Shown in pieces: positions 10,499 through 63,978 of a stretch of 64,000 nt of DNA. The notes beneath the pieces are model-generated. The model was not told the DNA's origin, ran no database searches, and was given only the letters and a program-made list of their open reading frames with translations. The stretch spans positions 2,666,001 through 2,730,000 of the forward strand of contig NC_015588.1 in assembly GCF_000215105.1 (NCBI RefSeq), given 5' to 3'. The first letter of the stretch is position 1, and every line of letters begins with the position of its first letter. The position numbers were made by a program, and so were the translations under genes. Source of the DNA: Isoptericola variabilis 225 (GTDB taxonomy: Bacteria; Actinomycetota; Actinomycetes; Actinomycetales; Cellulomonadaceae).

Positions 10499-10522
10499 CG
10501 AGATAGCGACGCGTCGCTACGT
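10499..10522. repeat. degenerate GAGGTAGCGC unit pair at a convergent junction
   Basis: A 16-base perfect palindrome (10504-10519, TAGCGACGCGTCGCTA) is flanked so that the left half reads as a degenerate forward unit (GAGATAGCGA) and the right half as a reverse unit (TCGCTACGTC). It lies exactly between the cebR stop and the convergent putA stop. It may act as a weak terminator. It looks like the minimal, eroded version of the larger arrays in this window. Confidence 0.5.
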
Positions 10523-13500
10523 CAGGCGCGGTGCACGTGGCCGTACCGGTGGCGCGTGCGGCTCACGGCCTGCTCGCGCAGGAACGTCAGCAGCTCGCGA
10601 CGCCCGGCGGCGAGCACCGGCCGGTCGAGCACCGTGACGGTGCCGAGGCGCCGGGCCGCGGCCTCGTGCAGGCCGGGCGCCTCGCCGATCACGCGGATGC
10701 GGCCGGTGATCCGGCCCTCGGCGACGGCGGCCGCGAAGTCCTCGTGGGAGACGGGCGCCTCGTGCGGCACGCCCCACCCGGCGTCGGACGCCGGCACGAC
10801 GACGGTCGGCACGCCCGCGCGGCGGGCGGCGGCCAGGACACGCTTGACCTCGACCGGCAGCGCGCCGTCGCCGACGCGCACGGTCACCTTCTCGACCGGG
10901 CGGTAGCGGAACGTGTTCTCCTCGACGCGCAGCCCGGTCCGGTCGTGCCCGACGCCGAACTCGGTCTCCCAGGCCGCGGCGTCGGACGCCTCGGCGAACG
11001 CCAGCCACCCCTCCGGGTCGTTGCCGCGCGACGGCACCACGGCCGCGTCGTCGGACCACGCGCCGAGCTGGGCGACGTAGTTGGGGCCGCCGGCCTTGGC
11101 GCCCGGGCCGACCACGGAGGCCTTCCAGCCGCCGAACGACTGCCGCTGCACGATCGCGCCGGTGATGTGCCGGTTGACGTAGACGTTGCCCGCCTCGACG
11201 CGGTCGAGCCACGTGGCGATCTCGTCCTCGTCGAGCGAGTGCAGGCCCGCGGTGAGGCCGAACGAGACCTGGTTCTGCAGGCGGATCGCCTCGTCGAGGT
11301 CCTTCGCGCGCATGATGCCCAGCACCGGACCGAAGACCTCGGTGAGGTGGAAGAACGAGCCCGGCGCGACGCCGTCGCGCAGGCCCGGCGACCACAGCCG
11401 GTCGGGGTCGATGCCCGCGGCGGCCGCGACGTCGTCGAGCCGCCGGGGCTCGACGAGCCACGACTCCCCCGGCTCGAGCGAGGTGAGCGCGCGCAGCAGC
11501 TTGCCCTGCGCCGGCTCGGTGAGCGGGCCCATGACGGTCGACAGCTCGCGCGGGTCGCCGACGGCGAGCGAGCGGACGGCGTCGACGAGCTGGCGGCGGA
11601 ACCGCTCGCCCGTGACGGTCGTCGGGTCGCCGACCGAGCCGACGAGGATGACGAGCGACGCCGCGGAGCACTTCTGGCCGGCGTGCCCGAACGCGCTGCG
11701 CACGAGGTCGGCGACCGCGAGGTCGAGGTCGGCCGACGGCGTCACGACGAGGGCGTTCTTGCCCGACGTCTCGGCGAAGACCGGCCGCTCGGGGCGCCAG
11801 CTCGCGAACAGCTCGGCAGTCTCGATCGAGCCCGTGAGGATGACGCGCGAGACGTCGGCGTGCGTGACGAGGTGCTTGCCGAGCTCGCCGTCGGGCACGC
11901 GGAGGAACTGCACGACGTCGCGCGGGACCTCGGGCGCGAGGCCGATCTGGGGCGCGACCGCGTCGAGCGCGCGGTGCACCGCGTCGACCGCGAGCTCGAA
12001 GCAGCGCGGCGTCGGCGGCGCGGGCTTGGCCAGCACCGGCGAGCCGGCGGCGAGCGACGCGAGCACGCCGCCGATCGGGATCGCGACCGGGAAGTTCCAC
12101 GGCGGGGTCACGAGGGTGACGCCCTCAGGCGCGAACGCGGCGCCCTCGACCTGCGCGAGCGCCTCGGCCGCGCCGGCGTAGTAGTTGGCGAAGTCGATCG
12201 CCTCGCTGACCTCGGGGTCGGCCTCGGCGACGGTCTTGCCGGGCTCGTGCACCGCGGCGGCGACGAGCTCGGTGCGCGCGGCCTCGAGCTCGCGGGCCGC
12301 GGCCCGCAGGACCTTCGCGCGGTCGGCCGGGGCGACGGCCGCCCACGCGTCGCGGACCGCGACGGCGCGCGCCACGGCGGCGTCGATCTCGTCGGTGCTC
12401 GTGACCTCGGGCGCCTGGACCGGGACGAAGCCCGAGTCCGGCCCGGTCACGCGCTTCGCCCACTCGCGGTGCTCCGCGACCGCCGGGTCCGTGTCGACGG
12501 CGTTGCGGAACTCGGGCGCGTCCTCCCACGGCTGGCGCGCGCCGAAGCGCGACCGGCGGCGGGGAGCGACGTCGTCGGGCGTGTAGTGCAGACCGTGCTC
12601 CACGGACGCGCGGAACGCGGCCTCCTGCCGGTCCATCGGGGTGCCCTCGGAGGCGGCACCCGTGCCAGGCGCGCCCGACGGCGCGAACGCGGCGTGCAGG
12701 AAGTTCTGCTCGGCGGCGTTCTCCTCGAGACGCCGCACGAGGTACGCGATCGCGACGTCGAAGTCCTCGTCGCGCACGACCGGCGTGTACAGCACCACGC
12801 GGCCGCCGTCCTTGCCGACCTCCTCGCGCACGAGGCGCGCCTCGATCGGCGCCATGCCCTGGAGCATCTCGATGTCGAGGCCCTCGGTCACGCCGCGCGA
12901 GCGCGCGAGCAGCACCGCGAGCGCCACGTGGAACAGGTTGTGCGACGCGACGCCGAGGCGGACGGCGGCGGTGCGCTCGGCCGTGAGGTGGTGCTCGAGG
13001 ACGCGCACGTAGTTGGCGTCGACCTCGGCCTTGGAGGTGTACGGGGCCTGCGGCCAGTCGTGCAGCTCGGCCTCGACCTGCTCCATGGCGAGGTTGGCGC
13101 CCTTGACGAGCCGGACCTTGATGCGTGCGCCGCCCGCGGCGATGCGCCGCTGGGCCCAGGCGGTGAGCTCGTCGAGCGCGCCGAGCGCGTCGGGCAGGTA
13201 CGCCTGCAGGACGATGCCGGCCTCGAGGTCACGGAACTCCGGCAGGTCGAGGATCTCGGTGAAGACCGCCGTGGTCAGCGCCAGGTCCTTGTACTCCTCC
13301 ATGTCGAGGTTGAGGAACACGCCGTGGTCGCGCGCGGCCCGGTACAGCGGCAGCAGCCGCTCGACGACGCGGCGGCGCGAGCCGTCGAGGTCCCACGTGA
13401 CGAGCTGCGCGGCGACGGACGAGACCTTGATCGACACGTAGTCGACGTCCGGCCGCTTGACCAGGTCGATGGTGCGCTGCAGGCGGGCCTTCGCCTCGTC

Positions 13501-14072: not shown

Positions 14073-14843
14073 ATGGGCGCAGTTTCGGACAAGACCACGT
14101 GGCCCGAGGCGGACGCCCTCCTGGCCGCGATGCCGCCTGCCATGGTCGCCCTCATGGACGAGCTCAGCGGCGTCATGTTCTGCGCCAAGGACACCACGGG
14201 CCGGTACGTGCTCGTCAACCAGGTCTTCGTGCGCCGCACCAACGAGAGCTCGCGCCGCGCGGTCATCGGGCGCCGCGCCGGCGACCTGTTCGTGCCCGAG
14301 CTCGCCGAGCGCTACACGACCCAGGACGACGAGGTGCTGCGCACCGGCAGGCCGCTGCGCAACGAGCTCGAGCTCATCCGCCACGTGGGCGGGGTGCCCG
14401 GCTGGTTCCTCACGTCCAAGCTGCCGGTGCACGACGGCGAGGGTCGCGTCGTGGGGATCGTGTCGGTCTCGCAGGACCTGCGCGAGGACGACGCCGACGA
14501 CGCCGCGATGGACGCCATGGCGCGGCTCGTCGCGGAGGTCGAGCGGCACCTCGACACGTCGCCCGGCGTCTCGCTGACCGTGGCCGACCTCGCGCGGATG
14601 GCCGGGTGCACGACGGCGGTGCTCGACCGGCGCGTGCGGCGCGTCTTCGGCCTGACGCCGCGCCAGCTCGTGCTGCGGGCGCGGGTCGACCGCGCCGCGC
14701 ACCTGCTGTCCTCGACCGCGACGCCCATCGCCGAGATCGCGTCCGTGACGGGCTTCTACGACCAGGCCGCGTTCACGCGCACGTTCGCCCGCCTCACCGG
14801 CGAGACGCCGTCGTCGTTCCGCCGCCGCGCCCGCCGCGCCTGA
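14073..14843 (+). CDS. PAS-domain AraC-type regulator, probable putA regulator
   Basis: The 256-residue protein has an N-terminal PAS domain (about 20-135, with a CAKDTTGRYVLVN strand) and a C-terminal AraC double helix-turn-helix (about 165-250, with GFYDQAAFTRTFARLTG in the second helix pair). ATG at 14073 lies 53 bases from the divergent putA start, so the short gap must hold both promoters. AraC/PAS proteins next to putA in actinobacteria are thought to activate it in response to proline. The ligand is inferred. Confidence 0.8.
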   Translation: MGAVSDKTTWPEADALLAAMPPAMVALMDELSGVMFCAKDTTGRYVLVNQVFVRRTNESSRRAVIGRRAGDLFVPELAERYTTQDDEVLRTGRPLRNELELIRHVGGVPGWFLTSKLPVHDGEGRVVGIVSVSQDLREDDADDAAMDAMARLVAEVERHLDTSPGVSLTVADLARMAGCTTAVLDRRVRRVFGLTPRQLVLRARVDRAAHLLSSTATPIAEIASVTGFYDQAAFTRTFARLTGETPSSFRRRARRA

Positions 14844-14859: not shown

Positions 14860-14890
14860 GAGGTAGCGCGTTCCGCGCCGAGGTAGCGCG
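14860..14890 (+). repeat. two forward GAGGTAGCGC units
   Basis: GAGGTAGCGCG occurs at 14860-14870 and 14880-14890, exactly 20 bases apart, just after the AraC-type gene. Only forward units are present here and no reverse block follows. The remaining bases up to bioY (14891-15030) hold no gene; short imperfect inverted repeats such as TGTGCGAAGTGCACA (14946-14960) may be part of the bioY promoter, but this is weak. Confidence 0.7.
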
Positions 14891-25893: not shown

Positions 25894-26444
25894 CGCCGCG
25901 AGCCCGTCGCGGGGATCCGGGCCTGCGCGGCGCGCAGCTTGTCGAGCAGGCGCGCGAGCTCCTCGAGCTCGTCGGGCTCGAGCGCCTCGCCGACGTAGCG
26001 CTCGATCGTGCGCACGTGCGCCCGGCCGGTCGTGCGCTGCAGCTCCCGCCCCTCGTCGGTGAGCGAGACGACGGTGCCGCGCGCGTCGTCGGCCGCGGCC
26101 GAGCGGCGGACGAGACCGCGCTCGGCGAGCCGGTCGACCATCCGCGACAGCGACGACTGGGCGAGCAGCACGTTCTCGTTGAGGTCGCGCAGCCGCATGC
26201 CGTCCGCAGGTCCGGTCGACAGCGTGTAGAGCACGTCGTACTCGCCGATGGTCAGGTCCTGCCAGATGTCGTCCGCGCGGAAGCGGCGCATGAGCGTGAC
26301 CTGGGTGCGGAACAGGGACTCCCACGCCTCGGCGGCCCGGCGCGCGCCGGTCGAGACGGTCCTGTCACGGGCGGGCTCGTGGGTGGTCTCGCCCGGGTTC
26401 TCGCCGGAGGTCACGGTCGCAGTCTCCTTCGTCCCGTCTCGCAC
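25890..26444 (-). CDS. MarR-family transcriptional regulator
   Basis: The 184-residue protein has a winged-helix core (about 60-150) with LRDLNENVLLAQSSLSRMVD as recognition helix and a RGLVRR wing start. The first 30 residues are polar and could be partly untranslated if an internal start is used. It heads the regulator-FMN reductase-glycerate kinase group, so it probably senses a redox-active or phenolic compound and controls the reductase. No palindromic operator stood out upstream. Ligand unknown. Confidence 0.85.
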   Translation of the reverse strand: MRDGTKETATVTSGENPGETTHEPARDRTVSTGARRAAEAWESLFRTQVTLMRRFRADDIWQDLTIGEYDVLYTLSTGPADGMRLRDLNENVLLAQSSLSRMVDRLAERGLVRRSAAADDARGTVVSLTDEGRELQRTTGRAHVRTIERYVGEALEPDELEELARLLDKLRAAQARIPATGSRR

Positions 26445-26462
26445 CGCCCGCCGGACGCGCGG

Positions 26463-27224
26463 TCAGCGCCCGAGCCGGCGCTCGCGGCGCGAGAAGTCGC
26501 GCAGCGCCCGCAGGAAGTCGACCCGCCGGAAGTCGGGCCAGTACGCCTCGCAGAAGTACAGCTCCGAGTGGGCGCTCTGCCACATGAGGAAGCCACCCAC
26601 GCGCAGCTCGCCCGACGTGCGGATGACGAGCTCGGGGTCGGGCTGGCCCTTGGTGTACAGGTGGGCGGCGATGTCGTCGACGTCGATGCGCTCGGCGAGC
26701 TCCTCGAGCGTCGCTCCCCCGGCGGCCTCCTGGCGCAGGTACGAGCGCACGGCGTCGGCGATCTCGTGGCGCCCACCGTAGCCGATCGCCACGTTGACCT
26801 GGAGGCCGTCGACGTCGCACGTACCGTCGGCCGCGGCCTTGAGGGCGGCGGCGAGGTCGTCGGGCAGCAGGTCGAGCCTGCCCATGACGCGCAGCCGCCA
26901 CCGGCCCGTCTCGGCGAGCTCGTCGACCGCGTCGCGGATGATGTCGAGCAGGTTGGCGAGCTCGTCCGCGGGCCGCGCGAGATTGTCGGTCGACAGCATC
27001 CACAGCGTGACGACCTCGATGCCGAGCGGTTCGGCCCAGCCGAGGAACTCGGTGATCTTGTCGGCGCCGCGCCGGTGGCCGGTGTGCGCGGGCTCGCCGA
27101 AGGACTTGGCCCAGCGGCGGTTGCCGTCGAGGATCACGCCGACGTGCCGGGGCATCTGCCGCGCCGGCAGCGACGCGGCGAGACGCCGCTCGTACAGGCC
27201 GTAGAGCAGGTGGGGCAGGCGCAC
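26463..27224 (-). CDS. uppS: short-chain cis-prenyl (isoprenyl) transferase
   Basis: The 253-residue enzyme belongs to the undecaprenyl/Z-farnesyl diphosphate synthase family. The pyrophosphate-binding HVGVILDGNRRWAK has the essential D33, and RTSGELRVGGF near 205 is conserved. Next to trhA it mirrors Rv1085c-Rv1086, where Rv1086 makes Z,E-farnesyl diphosphate for decaprenyl phosphate, so this is probably the short-chain enzyme rather than the main UppS; another long-chain gene is expected elsewhere. ATG at 27224 diverges from trhA. Confidence 0.88.
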   Translation of the reverse strand: MRLPHLLYGLYERRLAASLPARQMPRHVGVILDGNRRWAKSFGEPAHTGHRRGADKITEFLGWAEPLGIEVVTLWMLSTDNLARPADELANLLDIIRDAVDELAETGRWRLRVMGRLDLLPDDLAAALKAAADGTCDVDGLQVNVAIGYGGRHEIADAVRSYLRQEAAGGATLEELAERIDVDDIAAHLYTKGQPDPELVIRTSGELRVGGFLMWQSAHSELYFCEAYWPDFRRVDFLRALRDFSRRERRLGR

Positions 27225-27345
27225 GCGGACAACCGTACCGCCGTCGCGCCCCGCCGCGGACGGGCGGGCCGGTTCGGCGGGCGACCGGACCGACGTCGTC
27301 GCACGATCTTCACACGACGGGGTCGAGACCTCCCGCGCCGTACCC

Positions 27346-27376
27346 TACGCTTGCGTAACCTACGGTTCCGTAGGTT
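27346..27376 (+). promoter_or_regulatory. two adjacent inverted repeats upstream of trhA
   Basis: TACGCTTGCGTA (27346-27357) and the 20-base AACCTACGGTTCCGTAGGTT (27357-27376) share one base and both have a TT centre. The second ends 16 bases before the trhA start. Perfect palindromes of this kind are typical TetR-family operators in actinobacteria. The regulator is not in the window. Confidence 0.75.
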
Positions 27377-27392
27377 GACGAGGAGGAGACAC

Positions 27393-28184
27393 GTGGCAGC
27401 TGCCGCACACCAGCACGGCCGACCGTTCGACCGCGACGGCTCGCGCGACGGCGCCCACGACGTCGTGGCCGACGCCAAGGGCGCGATGCACGAGGCGCGC
27501 GAGGCCGTGTCCGACGTCGTGCAGACCGTCTCCGTGGCCGCCGGGAAGCAGGCCGCCCGCCTCAAGCCGCGTCTGCGCGGGTGGATCCACGCCGTCACGG
27601 CGCCGCTTGCGCTCGTGGCCGCCGTCGTGCTCGTCCTGCTCGCCCCGCCCGTGGCCGGGAAGGTCGCCGCCGCCGTGTTCGGGCTCAGCGCGGTCATGCT
27701 GTTCGGCACGAGCGCCGTCTACCACCGCGGGACGTGGTCCCCGCGCGTCGGCGCCGCCCTGCGCCGGCTCGACCACTCCAACATCTTCCTCATCATCGCG
27801 GGCACGTACACGCCTCTCGCCGTCATGCTGCTCGACCCGCGCACCGCGACGATCCTGCTGTCGATCGTCTGGGGCGGCGCCGTCGTCGGGCTGCTCGCGC
27901 GCGTGCTGTGGATGGACGCGCCGCGGTGGGTCTACGTGCCGGTGTACGTGGCGCTCGGCTGGGTCGCCGTGGCCTACATGGGCCAGTTCGCGGCGTCGGG
28001 CGGGATCGCGGTGGTGTGGCTCGTCGCCGGCGGGGGGCTCGCCTACACGCTCGGCGCGATCGTCTACGGCACCAAGCGGCCCGACCCCTCGCCCCGCTGG
28101 TTCGGGTTCCACGAGATCTTCCACGCGCTCACCGTCGTCGGCTTCGCGTGCCACACCGTCGCGATCTTTCTCGCGACCCTCTGA
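27393..28184 (+). CDS. trhA: hemolysin III / TrhA-family membrane protein
   Basis: The 263-residue protein has seven hydrophobic segments after a polar, charged N-terminus of about 55 residues. Conserved metal-ligand histidines are in SAVYHRG (about 110), LDHSNIF (about 130) and in FHEIFH near the C-terminus. The family is now linked to membrane energetics homeostasis rather than haemolysis. GTG at 27393 follows AGGAGGA at 27381. Divergent from uppS; probably controlled by the palindromes just upstream. Confidence 0.9.
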   Translation: MAAAAHQHGRPFDRDGSRDGAHDVVADAKGAMHEAREAVSDVVQTVSVAAGKQAARLKPRLRGWIHAVTAPLALVAAVVLVLLAPPVAGKVAAAVFGLSAVMLFGTSAVYHRGTWSPRVGAALRRLDHSNIFLIIAGTYTPLAVMLLDPRTATILLSIVWGGAVVGLLARVLWMDAPRWVYVPVYVALGWVAVAYMGQFAASGGIAVVWLVAGGGLAYTLGAIVYGTKRPDPSPRWFGFHEIFHALTVVGFACHTVAIFLATL

Positions 28185-28194
28185 TCCGTCCCGC

Positions 28195-28423
28195 GAGGTA
28201 GCGCGCTTCACCGCGAGGTAGCGCGTTTCACCGCGAGGTAGCGCGTTTCACCGCGAGGTAGCGCGTTTCACCGCGAGGTAGCGCGTTTCACCGCGAGGTA
28301 GCGCCGTCGTGCACTACCTCGCCGGATCGTGCGCTACCTCGCCGGATCGTGGTGCGCTACCTCGCCGGATCGTGCGCTACCTCGCCGGATCGTGCGCTAC
28401 CTCGCCGCGCCCAGCGCTACCTC
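28195..28423. repeat. GAGGTAGCGC array, 6 forward and 6 reverse units
   Basis: Forward units start at 28195, 28215, 28235, 28255, 28275 and 28295. Reverse-complement units start at 28311 (one change), 28331, 28354, 28374, 28394 and 28414. Spacing is 20 bases within each block. Spacers are TTTCACC-like on the left and GCCGGATCGT-like on the right. It lies between convergent trhA and the carbon-nitrogen hydrolase. The last reverse unit supplies the TAG stop of the hydrolase (28417-28419). Confidence 0.95.
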
Positions 28424-29247
28424 GGCGGGGTGTCGCGGGGGACGACGGCGTAGCGGCGGTTGGCGAGCGACGGGTTGCGCTCGCGCACGGCGGCGAGGGC
28501 CTCGGCGTCGAGGTCGACGGTCCGGTACTCGGGTGCCTCGCCGAGCTCGAGGCCGACGACGCCGTCGGGCCCGACGAGCGTCGACCGCCCGGTCACGCCC
28601 GTGCCGGCCATCCCGACGCCGAGGACCACGACAGTGTTCTCGATCGCGCGCGCCTGCAGCAGCGTGCGCCAGTGCTCGGCCTTGAGCGGACCCGCGACCC
28701 AGGCGGCCGGCACCACGATCGCGTCCGCACCGGCGTCGACCACGCGCCGCGCCGACTCGGGGAACCGCAGGTCGTAGCACGTGATGACCCCGAAGGTGAG
28801 GTCGCCGACGCGCAGGGTGAGCGGCGGGGCGTCCGCGGGACCGGGCTCGAGCAGGTCGGACTCGCGGAACCCGAACGCGTCGTACAGGTGGACCTTGCGG
28901 TAGACGCCCGCGAGCGCGCCCGTCGCGTCGACGCCGACGACCGCGTTGACCGCCCGCTGCCGCCCGGTGGGGCCGACCGACCCGCTGCCGGGCAGCGTCG
29001 TGCCCGCGACCACCGCGACGCCGTGCTCGCGCGCGTGCCGGCGCAGCGCCGTGACGAACGGGCCGTCGAGGGGCTCGGCGTGCTCCGAGCCCACACCCTG
29101 ACGGTGGTACCCCGAGGCGTACTCGGGCAGGATCAGCAGGTCCGAGCGCACGCGGGCCGCGGCGCCGAACGCGTCGGCGACCATCGCCAGGTTGGCCGCC
29201 CGGTCGTCGGCGACCGCGACCTGGCCGACCGTGACCCGCACCGTCAT
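28417..29247 (-). CDS. carbon-nitrogen hydrolase (nitrilase superfamily)
   Basis: The 276-residue protein has the full nitrilase triad: E42 (LPEYASG), K118 (YRKVHLYD) and C157 (ITCYDLRFPE), so it should hydrolyse an amide such as omega-amides or N-carbamoyl compounds. The exact substrate cannot be set. Start ATG at 29247 overlaps the upstream gene stop (ATGA). Its stop codon lies inside the last repeat unit of the adjacent array, so the final residues have been set by the repeat. Confidence 0.9.
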   Translation of the reverse strand: MTVRVTVGQVAVADDRAANLAMVADAFGAAARVRSDLLILPEYASGYHRQGVGSEHAEPLDGPFVTALRRHAREHGVAVVAGTTLPGSGSVGPTGRQRAVNAVVGVDATGALAGVYRKVHLYDAFGFRESDLLEPGPADAPPLTLRVGDLTFGVITCYDLRFPESARRVVDAGADAIVVPAAWVAGPLKAEHWRTLLQARAIENTVVVLGVGMAGTGVTGRSTLVGPDGVVGLELGEAPEYRTVDLDAEALAAVRERNPSLANRRYAVVPRDTPPR

Positions 29248-42600: not shown

Positions 42601-43020
42601 ATGGCCGGTACCCCGTTCTCGCAGCAGGTCCTCAAGCCGACGAACGCGGCGAAGCGGCTCGGGGTGTACCTCCCCGCGACGCCCCCCGAGTTCCAGGAGC
42701 GCGGCGTCACGCGCGCCGAGCTCGAGGAGCTCGAGAAGAACCCGCCCGAGTGGCTCGCCGACCTGCGCCGCAACGGCCCCCACCCGCGCCCCGTCGTCGC
42801 CGGCCGGCTCGGCATCTCGATCGCCGGCCTCGCGCGCGGCGGCATCACCGAGCCGCTGACGACCGAGGAGATCGACGCCCTGCGCGCCGACCCGCCCGAG
42901 TGGCTCGTGCGCGAGCGCGAGGTCGCGGCCCGCGTGCGCGAGGAGGAGGAGCGGATCGCCGCGAAGGAGGCGGAGCAGGCCGCACGCGCCGAGCGCCGCA
43001 CCCGCCGCTCGGCGACGTAG
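42601..43020 (+). CDS. DUF5997 family protein
   Basis: The 139-residue basic protein starts MAGTPFSQQVLKPTNAAKRL and contains two related PPEWL segments (about 48-52 and 98-102), each after an acidic helix. The end is a charged coiled helix. It matches DUF5997, a family of unknown function found in actinobacteria. Its stop codon TAG (43018-43020) lies within the first unit of a repeat block. The divergent LysR-like domain protein is its usual neighbour. Confidence 0.82.
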   Translation: MAGTPFSQQVLKPTNAAKRLGVYLPATPPEFQERGVTRAELEELEKNPPEWLADLRRNGPHPRPVVAGRLGISIAGLARGGITEPLTTEEIDALRADPPEWLVREREVAARVREEEERIAAKEAEQAARAERRTRRSAT

Positions 43021-43063
43021 CGCTCCCCGCGGCGAGGTAGCGCTCCGCGCGGCGAGGTAGCGC
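43014..43063 (+). repeat. three forward GAGGTAGCGC units
   Basis: Units start at 43014 (GACGTAGCGC), 43034 and 43054 with exact 20-base spacing. The first supplies the stop of the DUF5997 gene. No reverse block follows; the convergent SelT-like gene ends at 43067, leaving no room. Confidence 0.85.
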
Positions 43064-48940: not shown

Positions 48941-49200
48941 GAAGTAGCGCGGCACGGCGCGAAGTAGCGCGGCACGGCGCGAAGTAGCGCGGGCACGAAG
49001 CAGAGAACCGGCGAGGTCGCACACTTTCGCGTGCTACCTCGCCGGTTCCCGCGCTACCTCGCCGGTTCCCGCGCTACCTCGCCGGTTGCCGCGCTACCTC
49101 GGCGAATCCCGCGCTACCTCGCCGGTTGCCGCGCTACCTCGCCGGTTCCCGCGCTACCTCGGCGAATCCCGCGCTACCTCGGCGAATGCTTGCGCTACCG
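48941..49200. repeat. GAGGTAGCGC array, 3 forward and 9 reverse units
   Basis: Forward units GAAGTAGCGC start at 48941, 48961 and 48981. Reverse units start at 49031 (GTGCTACCTC), 49051, 49071, 49091, 49111, 49131, 49151, 49171 and a variant at 49191. Spacers alternate between GCCGGTTCCC and GGCGAATCCC. An extra 13-bp inverted pair (49005-49017 with 49036-49048) joins the blocks. It fills the gap between two genes both on the minus strand, so it is not a convergent terminator. Confidence 0.95.
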
Positions 49201-49202
49201 CG

Positions 49203-50063
49203 TCACTCGCTGCTGTTGAAGATCGCGATGAGGCGCAGGAACTCCAGGTACAGCCAGACCAGCGTGACGATCAGGCCGAACGCCGCGGTCCACGCGTAGG
49301 TCGACGGGACGCCCTGCTCGACGCCGCGCTTGATCGCGTCGAAGTCGACGATGAGCGACGCGGCGGCGAGACCGACGGCGACGAGGCCCACGATGATGCC
49401 GAGCGCACCGCTGCGCATGCCCCAGCCCTCGAGCACGCCCGTCCACGTGAGGACCACGTTGATGAGCGAGAAGGCCATGTAGCCCACGAGGGCGATGAGC
49501 AGCCAGCGGGTGAACTTGGGCGTGACCCGCACGCGGCCCGACTTGAAGAGGAACAGCGCGGCGGCGAACGTCGCCATCGTCGCCACGATCGCCTGGAGGA
49601 CGACGCCCACCGCGTTCTCGCCCGCGATGCTGCCGAACAGCAGGCTGACGCCACCGAGGAACACGCCCTCCGCGACCGCGTAGAGCGTGATGAGCACCGG
49701 GCTCGGCTTCTTCTTGAACGCGTTGACCAGACCGAGCACGAGGCCGGCGATCATGCCGACGGGCCACAGGCCCGGGGCGAAGGTCCACGTCGCGGCGGCG
49801 ACCACGACCAGCAGGGCGAGCAGCCCGCCGGTCTTGATGATCACGTCGTCGTACGTGAGGCGCTTGGTGTCCGCCGTCGTCGCCGACGGCGCGTTGTACA
49901 TGTTCTCGAGCGACGCGGCGTCGGCCGCCTGCGCGCCCGCCGTGCCGTACTGGCCGTACTGCGGCTGGCCGTAGGGCGACGGCGCCGTCGCGGCGCCGCC
50001 CCCGCGCGCCGTGCGGCGCGGCTCGCCGAAGACGTCGCTGTTCGAGAAGACGGGGTTGCTCAT
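49203..50063 (-). CDS. Bax inhibitor-1/YccA family membrane protein
   Basis: The 286-residue protein has a Gln/Gly/Tyr-rich cytoplasmic N-terminus (about 1-75) and seven hydrophobic segments with the family end (TYAWTAAFGLIVTLVWLYLE). Members are thought to be calcium or proton leak channels or FtsH partners; bacterial function is unsettled. ATG at 50063 has GGAGGAG just upstream. Confidence 0.9.
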   Translation of the reverse strand: MSNPVFSNSDVFGEPRRTARGGGAATAPSPYGQPQYGQYGTAGAQAADAASLENMYNAPSATTADTKRLTYDDVIIKTGGLLALLVVVAAATWTFAPGLWPVGMIAGLVLGLVNAFKKKPSPVLITLYAVAEGVFLGGVSLLFGSIAGENAVGVVLQAIVATMATFAAALFLFKSGRVRVTPKFTRWLLIALVGYMAFSLINVVLTWTGVLEGWGMRSGALGIIVGLVAVGLAAASLIVDFDAIKRGVEQGVPSTYAWTAAFGLIVTLVWLYLEFLRLIAIFNSSE

Positions 50064-55362: not shown

Positions 55363-55530
55363 GAGGTAGCGCACTTCTCGCCGAGGTAGCGCACTTCTCG
55401 CCAAGGTAGCGCGTCCCTCGCCGACGTAGCGCGTTTCTCGACGAGGTAGCACCGTCCCGCGCGCTACCTCGCGACGCGCCGCGCTACCTCGCCACCTGCC
55501 GCGCTACGTCGCGACCTGGTGCGCTACCTC
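55363..55530. repeat. GAGGTAGCGC array, 5 forward and 4 reverse units
   Basis: Forward units start at 55363, 55383, 55403 (AAGGTAGCGC), 55423 (GACGTAGCGC) and 55443 (GAGGTAGCAC). Reverse units start at 55461, 55481, 55501 (GCGCTACGTC) and 55521. Spacing is 20 bases. This array lies between divergent genes (RND exporter and the gene at 55634), so it sits in a promoter region rather than at gene ends. The leftmost unit begins about 80 bases from the RND start. Confidence 0.92.
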
Positions 55531-63707: not shown

Positions 63708-63978
63708 GAGGTAGCGCCGCGCCTCGCGAGGTAGCGCGTTCGCGCGCGAAGTAGCGCCGCGCCTCGCGAGGTAGCGCCGCGCTCCGCGAAGTAGCGCCGC
63801 GAGGTAGCGCGTTCGCGAGCGAGGTAGCACGACGTCGGCCGCTCACCTCCGTGAAGGTGAGCGGCCGACGTCGGGCCGGGTAGCACCCGCGCTACCTCGT
63901 GGCAGAACGCGCTACCTTGGCGAGAAACGCGCTACCTCGCGGAGCGAAGCGCTACCTCGCGGCAGAACGCGCTACCTG
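63708..63978. repeat. GAGGTAGCGC array, 7 forward and 5 reverse units around a hairpin
   Basis: Forward units start at 63708, 63728, 63748 (GAAGTAGCGC), 63768, 63788 (GAAGTAGCGC), 63801 and 63821 (GAGGTAGCAC). Reverse units start at 63889, 63909 (GCGCTACCTT), 63929, 63949 and 63969 (GCGCTACCTG). Spacing is 20 bases except one 13-base step. A separate stem-loop stands at the turn between the blocks. The array fills the gap between ftsB and eno. Confidence 0.95.
63830..63873. terminator. 18-bp stem-loop at the centre of the eno-ftsB array
   Basis: Perfect arms 63830-63847 and 63856-63873 with an 8-base loop. Placed downstream of eno and upstream of ftsB, it can end eno transcripts. The two array blocks flank it. 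Confidence 0.8.

Follow-up and report, generated by a model that had tools for sequence, protein, structure and literature searches.

Arrays of a 10-bp word, GAGGTAGCGC, repeated at a 20-bp phase and often arranged as two arms facing each other, are found between genes of Isoptericola variabilis 225, preferentially where genes end. We tentatively interpret these arrays as polar binding sites for a putative factor, acting as two-way transcription stops, a reading which is drawn from sequence comparison and to which we give somewhat less than an even chance. A literature search over open-access papers returned no description of such arrays.

Arrays in the window and anatomy of the unit

The window, i.e. 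the whole 64,000-nt stretch of DNA that was analysed, covers bases 2,666,001-2,730,000 of a single-contig genome of 3,307,740 bp (G000 in what follows). It holds 34 exact copies of the 10-mer (16 forward, 18 reverse) and 68 matches with at most one mismatch, where shuffles predict 9.8. All of the arrays reported in a first-pass annotation exist, namely those at 28195, 48941 (3+9 units), 55363 (5+4), and 63708 (7+5), the forward-only blocks at 14860 and 43014, and the pair at 10499. The features referred to below are:

10499..10523, no strand: degenerate facing pair CGAGATAGCGA...TCGCTACGTC, from the sequence
14860..14889, plus strand: one-armed array of 2 units, 16 bp past the stop of the plus-strand gene 14073-14843
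27393..28184, plus strand: left convergent gene, hemolysin III / TrhA family, by an NCBIfam match inside the ORF 26016-28184
28195..28304, plus strand: forward arm, six copies of GAGGTAGCGC at 20 bp, beginning 10 bp past the stop of the TrhA/hemolysin-III-family gene
28311..28423, minus strand: reverse arm of 6 units, unit 1 with one mismatch, including one 23-bp step
28417..29247, minus strand: right convergent gene, nitrilase/amidase-like, scoring under the curated cut-offs of the families matched
43014..43063, plus strand: one-armed array of 3 units, the TAG of units 1 and 2 terminating plus-strand ORFs
48941..48990, plus strand: forward arm, three copies of GAAGTAGCGC, by word matching
49031..49201, minus strand: reverse arm of 9 units, separated by 1 bp from the stop codon of gene 49203-50063 (minus strand)
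55363..55452, plus strand: forward arm of 5 units, in a gap called divergent
55461..55530, minus strand: reverse arm of 4 units, by word matching, in a gap called divergent
63708..63830, plus strand: forward arm of 7 units, by word matching
63831..63872, no strand: GC-rich hairpin with an 18-bp stem separating both arms, read by eye
63889..63978, minus strand: reverse arm of 5 units, by word matching

The first-pass annotation counted about fifty units in the window, all of them between genes. The count stands (approximately 52 units in the seven named places), but many arrays begin within a stop codon; the amidase-like gene 28417-29247, for example, takes its TAG stop from the outermost unit of the reverse arm 28311..28423. 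The array at 48941-49201 is flanked by two minus-strand genes, while that at 43014-43063, which was called tandem, probably ends a missed plus-strand ORF. Likewise, the 20-bp spacing is predominant but not invariable, steps of 23 bp (28331-28354) and 13 bp (63788-63801) occurring in the window. At gathering cut-offs, the single Rfam match in the window was a tRNA.

The phase holds elsewhere in the genome. Pairs of the form GAGGTAGCGC-N10-GAGGTAGCGC number 144 forward and 124 reverse across the whole 3.31 Mb, against none for the control. Further counts were taken from an 864-kb sample consisting of the window and 40 stretches, 20 of which were chosen mostly for arrays while the other 20, like the window, were not. 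This sample contained 236 exact 10-mers where an order-3 Markov model expects 5.8; isolated exact copies, 10 against the same expectation, were near chance. Same-strand pair distances of up to 200 bp were multiples of 20 in 335 of 353 cases. Between neighbouring units on one strand of this genome, spacings of 10-35 bp equalled 20 in 232 of 246 cases.

The unit in G000 reads C-GAGGTAG-CGC followed by a 9-nt spacer. The C at position -1 and positions 8-10, neither of which was used in choosing units, show 97-100% conservation. Positions 11-16, by contrast, vary almost at random, and the spacer as a whole is close to random except for the G and C at its end. The proposal that selection acts on the word and its spacing is therefore supported in this genome; the core is indeed constant, but the conserved word extends by a base to the left of the proposed 10-mer and, over relatives, contracts to the pattern given below. 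Each 20-bp unit is a non-palindromic direct repeat without dyad, and symmetry exists only between arms. Inner cores of facing arms are mostly 20 or 21 bp apart (12 of the 19 lying within 45 bp in this genome), so the phase is kept from one arm to the other. Spacers are often alike inside one arm and unlike between arms, as tandem duplication would give. By eye, a GC-rich hairpin stands between the arms in some arrays (63831-63872 of the window, L060, and L074). Two loci, L092:8485-8559 and L066:9465-9539, have a similar inner element of approximately 50 bp (GCGCGAGAGCAGAGGGAGCGCAGCGACCGATTCAT...) in opposite orientation. The arrays are unlikely to be assembly artefacts, a possibility raised with their first description, because arrays of the same kind, with different core variants, are present in sister genomes.

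Placement and polarity at gene ends

Genes were called by a purpose-written caller, and gaps above 600 bp were omitted from the counts by gap class. Among gaps of 150-600 bp, arrays occurred in 12 of the 20 between convergent genes, in 10 of the 75 between tandem genes, and in 1 of the 71 between divergent genes; half of the stretches had been chosen for arrays, which inflates these rates, and only the contrast between classes counts (convergent versus divergent, p = 5e-9; tandem versus divergent, p = 0.009). Although the sample was enriched for arrays, no more than 19 of the 57 convergent gaps between 80 and 600 bp long bore one. A sense unit lay within 60 bp of 42 gene ends, and in 23 of these the stop codon was the unit's own TAG, so that arrays reach coding ends; among all called genes, 130 of 778 stop at TAG. 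The supply of stop codons was considered as a purpose of the arrays and rejected, since one lineage spells its unit CGAGTCAG, the TC dialect described below, which has no stop in the sense direction.

Polarity was tallied by hand over sampled loci of G000, G003, G007, G016, G017, and seven Cellulosimicrobium genomes. The loci of G003, G016, and Cellulosimicrobium had been chosen for pair matches, those of G017 and G009 had not, and those of G007 had in part. In convergent and tandem gaps, two-armed arrays ran forward-reverse in 82 cases and reverse-forward in 2, and one-armed arrays after tandem genes were sense in 20 cases and antisense in 6 (p = 0.009), in a tally which omits divergent gaps and L337, a locus of mixed pattern, and which includes several mutually orthologous Cellulosimicrobium loci. 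In two-armed arrays, then, forward units lie to the left in all but a few cases (L056:4411, L305); the claim that they always do so fails for one-armed arrays, which are common in either orientation. A single arm was present in 26 of 75 convergent arrays and in 8 of the 10 arrays sampled from G007. In G003, 3 of 15 arrays were called divergent, on short stretches and with a borrowed codon model.

In tandem gaps of G000, 27 of 41 antisense units were exact, against 55 of 66 sense units. The lower exactness of antisense units would suit a word read in RNA, and counts against a protein that blocks polymerase. In several places, one or a few genes are bracketed by two arms, forward on one side and reverse on the other (L057:1378-2790, L071:633-1640, L072:9309-9934, and L337:10455-12429), an arrangement suggestive of genes inserted into the interior of an array; by eye, one bracketed gene is accessory-like and another nagB-like. 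Such a bracket explains some of the antisense-only arrays, which form its second half (L071; L057 and L072 have similar brackets).

Dialects and orthologous gene ends

The exact CGC form was found in 5 of 58 genomes searched, G000 included. Freed of its suffix, the pattern GAGGTAG-N13-GAGGTAG matched 37 of 221 family genomes, the bulk of the matches lying in the own genus, g8 (Cellulosimicrobium), and G028 of g12; an order-wide sample gave matches in 11 of 396 genomes, with strong counts in the own genus only. Over these relatives, only CGAG-NN-AG is constant, while NN and the suffix vary by lineage, giving what we call dialects. Within some species the three bases following GAGGTAG hardly vary, but they are unlike between species, reading CGC in G000, GC(A/G) in G016 and G017, T(T/C)C in G003, A(A/G)C in Cellulosimicrobium, and a mixture in G007; the suffix dialect is identical in both arms. 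G001, G009, and G012, with none or hardly any GAGGTAG arrays, possess 20-bp arrays of CGAGTCAG, in which TC replaces GT, and were thus rejected as array-negative sister species.

Matches to the CGAGNNAG pair numbered 17-294 in 14 of 18 genus members (controls 0-4), and 0 or 1 in G002, G004, G008, and G013. G239 was left out of this count on account of its control matches (33+42 versus 122+112), and control matches also arose in G081, G099, G106, and G126, since the reversed pattern is likewise matched by the word CGAGCGAGC. On a tree of two linked proteins, suffix dialects are distributed roughly by clade, and array-poor species stand among array-rich ones. Dispersed CGAGCGAGCAACCGACACGTCGAGCGAG-like pairs at 20 bp, some of them facing, were observed in g41 (G081, G099, G106, G126, and G132); they are a possible further dialect in another genus, although the pattern control matches the same word. 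In G019 (g3), CGAGACAG/CGAGATAG pairs spaced by 20 bp, with 5 matches and none in the control, possibly constitute an AC dialect.

In Cellulosimicrobium, where genomes have between a few and a few tens of pair matches, the repeat takes the form of a compact palindrome of 2+2 units, 69 bp long, with a common consensus. In arms unused for detection, its core is no better conserved than its spacer. The element there thus looks like a fixed 69-bp palindromic repeat, and a constraint on core over spacer was dropped for this genus. A second class of element was seen at L260, L274, L309, and L310 of Cellulosimicrobium, consisting of a hairpin, GAGGTAGAGGCGTGGTC...GACCACGCCTCTACCTC, with units running outwards at 20-21 bp, compared with a nearly strict 20 in the genome of the window.

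Two junctions of the window were followed through the genus. The junction of the amidase and TrhA genes was compared in 17 of the 18 genomes; in G007 the reading extended beyond the gene. It carries CGC units in G000 and G006, AA units in G014, and GC units in both arms in G016; no array was seen there in 13 of the 17, and the comparison of orthologous ends shows none in G007. At the 3' end of gene 49203-50063, inspected by eye, a GC-rich hairpin is present in 14 of 18 genomes. It is accompanied by GAGGTAG arrays in G016, G017, and G007, and by CGAGTCAG-type arrays in G012 and G001, while G000, G006, and G014 have arrays without such a hairpin (G015 is partly N). Given that most relatives are without an array at these two junctions, and that 4 of 18 members have 0-1 pair matches, the element is dispensable.

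Orthologous 3' ends of G000 and G007 bore arrays in both genomes in 5 cases, in one only in 7, and in neither in 72 (p = 1.5e-4); here and in the two comparisons that follow, a convergent junction with both genes orthologous enters twice. Co-occurrence with G009, whose dialect differs, was weak (both 2, one only 7, neither 55; p = 0.065), and none was found with G017 (both 0, G000 only 3, neither 62). Some orthologous ends that share arrays have different downstream neighbours.

Proposed mechanism and alternative readings

We infer a polar two-way stop from placement at 3' ends, sense polarity, inward arms, a tendency to exclude hairpins, the keeping of the word, and co-occurrence at the ends shared by G000 and G007. 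With respect to hairpins, GC-rich ones were detected in 23 of 38 array-free versus 5 of 19 array-bearing convergent gaps of at least 80 bp (p = 0.024), with unit masking lowering detection in the latter; arrays and GC hairpins in convergent gaps tend to be alternatives. A candidate sequence-specific protein would bind the arrays and stop RNA polymerase arriving from either side. It would read CGAG-NN-AG plus the suffix in double-stranded DNA. A spacing of 20 bp approximates two turns of B-DNA, and neighbouring units would be bound cooperatively on one face of the helix. The block would be polar, stronger against polymerase approaching from the GAGG side, such that two facing arms would form a two-way stop. 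Dialects would record shifts in the specificity of the factor, with its sites following, and arrays probably grow via unit-length slippage, which would explain the like spacers within an arm.

Comparable systems are known in eukaryotes. The Sal-box arrays bound by TTF-I place several polymerase-stopping sites in a row. The yeast factors Reb1 and Rap1, as portrayed in passages of PMC10310618, are roadblock terminators whose sequence-specific sites stop polymerase, Rap1p doing so in an orientation-dependent manner. Our arrays have in common with protein roadblock terminators that sequence-specific sites recur at gene 3' ends. In contrast to the eukaryotic systems, the sites described here face each other between convergent genes, and the protein is putative. 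Intrinsic bidirectional terminators resemble the arrays in their location at convergent 3' ends, in their inverted symmetry, and in that an array replaces a GC hairpin at one gene end, but the arrays are often one-armed at convergent ends, and it is the unit sequence that is kept in G000, with spacers unpaired.

Several results count against polar sites that block polymerase. These include the six antisense one-armed arrays, the divergent arrays of G003, and the convergent gaps of which no more than 19 in 57 are occupied, as well as the dispensability of the element, the lack of co-occurrence between G000 and G017, its weakness with G009, and the equal conservation of core and spacer in Cellulosimicrobium. 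Avoidance of the terminus, discussed below, is not predicted by such a roadblock either.

It is possible, if somewhat unlikely, that the arrays are instead self-spreading and self-amplifying extragenic repeats, tolerated at gene 3' ends, with dialects as repeat lineages. The REP/BIME of enterobacteria are multi-copy and intergenic, are located at gene 3' ends in opposed orientations, and can undergo tandem amplification; the arrays are alike in each of these respects. The strong tandem amplification, the compact Cellulosimicrobium palindrome, and the patchy occurrence among sister species speak for such repeats, and their placement would largely follow if they avoided promoters. REP/RAYT units are themselves palindromic and headed by GTAG, whereas here only the whole Cellulosimicrobium element is a palindrome, and the G000 unit is a direct repeat of constant phase with arms directed inward. 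Neither the sense polarity nor a change of dialect at orthologous ends would be expected of them, and the scarcity of isolated units argues likewise. The hypothesis is weakened further by the absence of RAYT (Y1_Tnp, PF01797) from all 61 family genomes searched (G000 included, 4 being of its genus), when 5 of 14 control genomes were positive. An origin in phages or plasmids was rejected: no GAGGTAGCGC pair occurs in the viral contigs, and the array at 28190-28430 had no blastn match among phages and plasmids with the low-complexity filter on, a setting which removes simple repeats.

Pairing of the arms in the transcript, yielding a two-way intrinsic terminator or a shield for the mRNA 3' end, appears unlikely as the shared function. 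The long foldback RNA suggested in the first-pass annotation is feasible for two-armed arrays, whose folds are much more stable than those of mononucleotide shuffles (mean z -9.2 to -10.5), and the use of one suffix dialect across both arms would be in keeping with it. Beyond the consensus, arms match in Cellulosimicrobium (0.77 versus 0.68, p = 0.0005); in members of the genus other than G000 the match is weak (0.57 versus 0.43, n = 9, p = 0.028), and the spacers of G000 do not match (0.485 for own arms versus 0.444 crossed, p = 0.15). When orthologous elements of Cellulosimicrobium were compared outside the core, one member was broken in 58 pairs and both sides had changed in 12, compared with 1-9 for a shifted-pairing control whose range was counted slightly differently; covariation is thus weak as proof of a stem. 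The prevalence of single arms, above all in G007, is at odds with pairing, and arms in reverse-forward order would fold equally well yet almost never occur. One-armed arrays, unmatched spacers in G000, and the keeping of the word rather than the spacer favour recognition unit by unit over simple pairing.

Of the earlier suggestion of a binding platform for a chromosome-organising protein, we retain the platform; its placement, by 3' ends and sense polarity, points first to the ends of transcription. Chromosome-organising or nucleoid-occlusion-like sites excluded from the replication terminus strike us as quite improbable. The origin was placed by parB, because GC skew was too weak and noisy for placing origin and terminus. 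In G000, only 2 of the 61 exact-pair clusters listed fall within 1.20-2.05 Mb, opposite parB (p = 5e-6, for an interval which, like the other terminus intervals, was picked after looking at the data), with one further degenerate array at 1.35 Mb. In G017, 1 of the 34 clusters listed falls within 1.4-2.4 Mb, and none of the 12 loci of G166 falls within 1.53-3.56 Mb. G170 and G175, on the other hand, have elements near the point opposite parB (for G170, among the 18 of 24 listed), so that avoidance holds in three of the five chromosomes examined. Terminus-side convergent gaps of G000 and G017 are about as frequent as elsewhere and mostly empty; younger gene content at the terminus may account for the gap. 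Noc and SlmA bind many sites which are scarce near the terminus, a trait that the arrays share where avoidance holds, and head-to-head arrays on one helix face would suit a bridging protein. Noc/SlmA sites are, however, single palindromes without the 3'-end polarity of the arrays, which this explanation would not account for. No Noc-like ParB paralogue scored over the cut-off in 21 genomes, each of which has one ParB above it; second, sub-cut-off matches exist in G005, G012, and G014.

That a DNA-transfer system uses the units as words for uptake or recognition is very improbable, for although the DUS of Neisseriaceae, as described in passages of PMC3630211, have a short invariant core, lineage dialects, and inverted pairs associated with terminators much as the arrays do, they number thousands per genome, are commonly intragenic, and do not figure in those passages as 20-bp arrays, while our units are near chance outside arrays.

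Returning to polar binding sites as two-way stops, one may imagine a bacterial "gene-end code", in which a fast-evolving factor, cooperative on phased inward arrays, would impose a polar two-way stop in place of hairpin terminators, the word drifting together with the factor and hundreds of sites, and the arrays also setting chromosome domains away from the terminus; we regard this extended scheme as speculative and rather doubtful. To our knowledge, the ending of genes in high-GC actinobacteria is poorly understood. If factor-bound arrays do stop transcription, they would represent bacterial roadblock termination akin to that of yeast, in tractable non-model strains. Under any mechanism, up to hundreds of sites per genome have been respelled together between sister species, and this joint respelling is a natural experiment on the genome-wide change of a recognition word.
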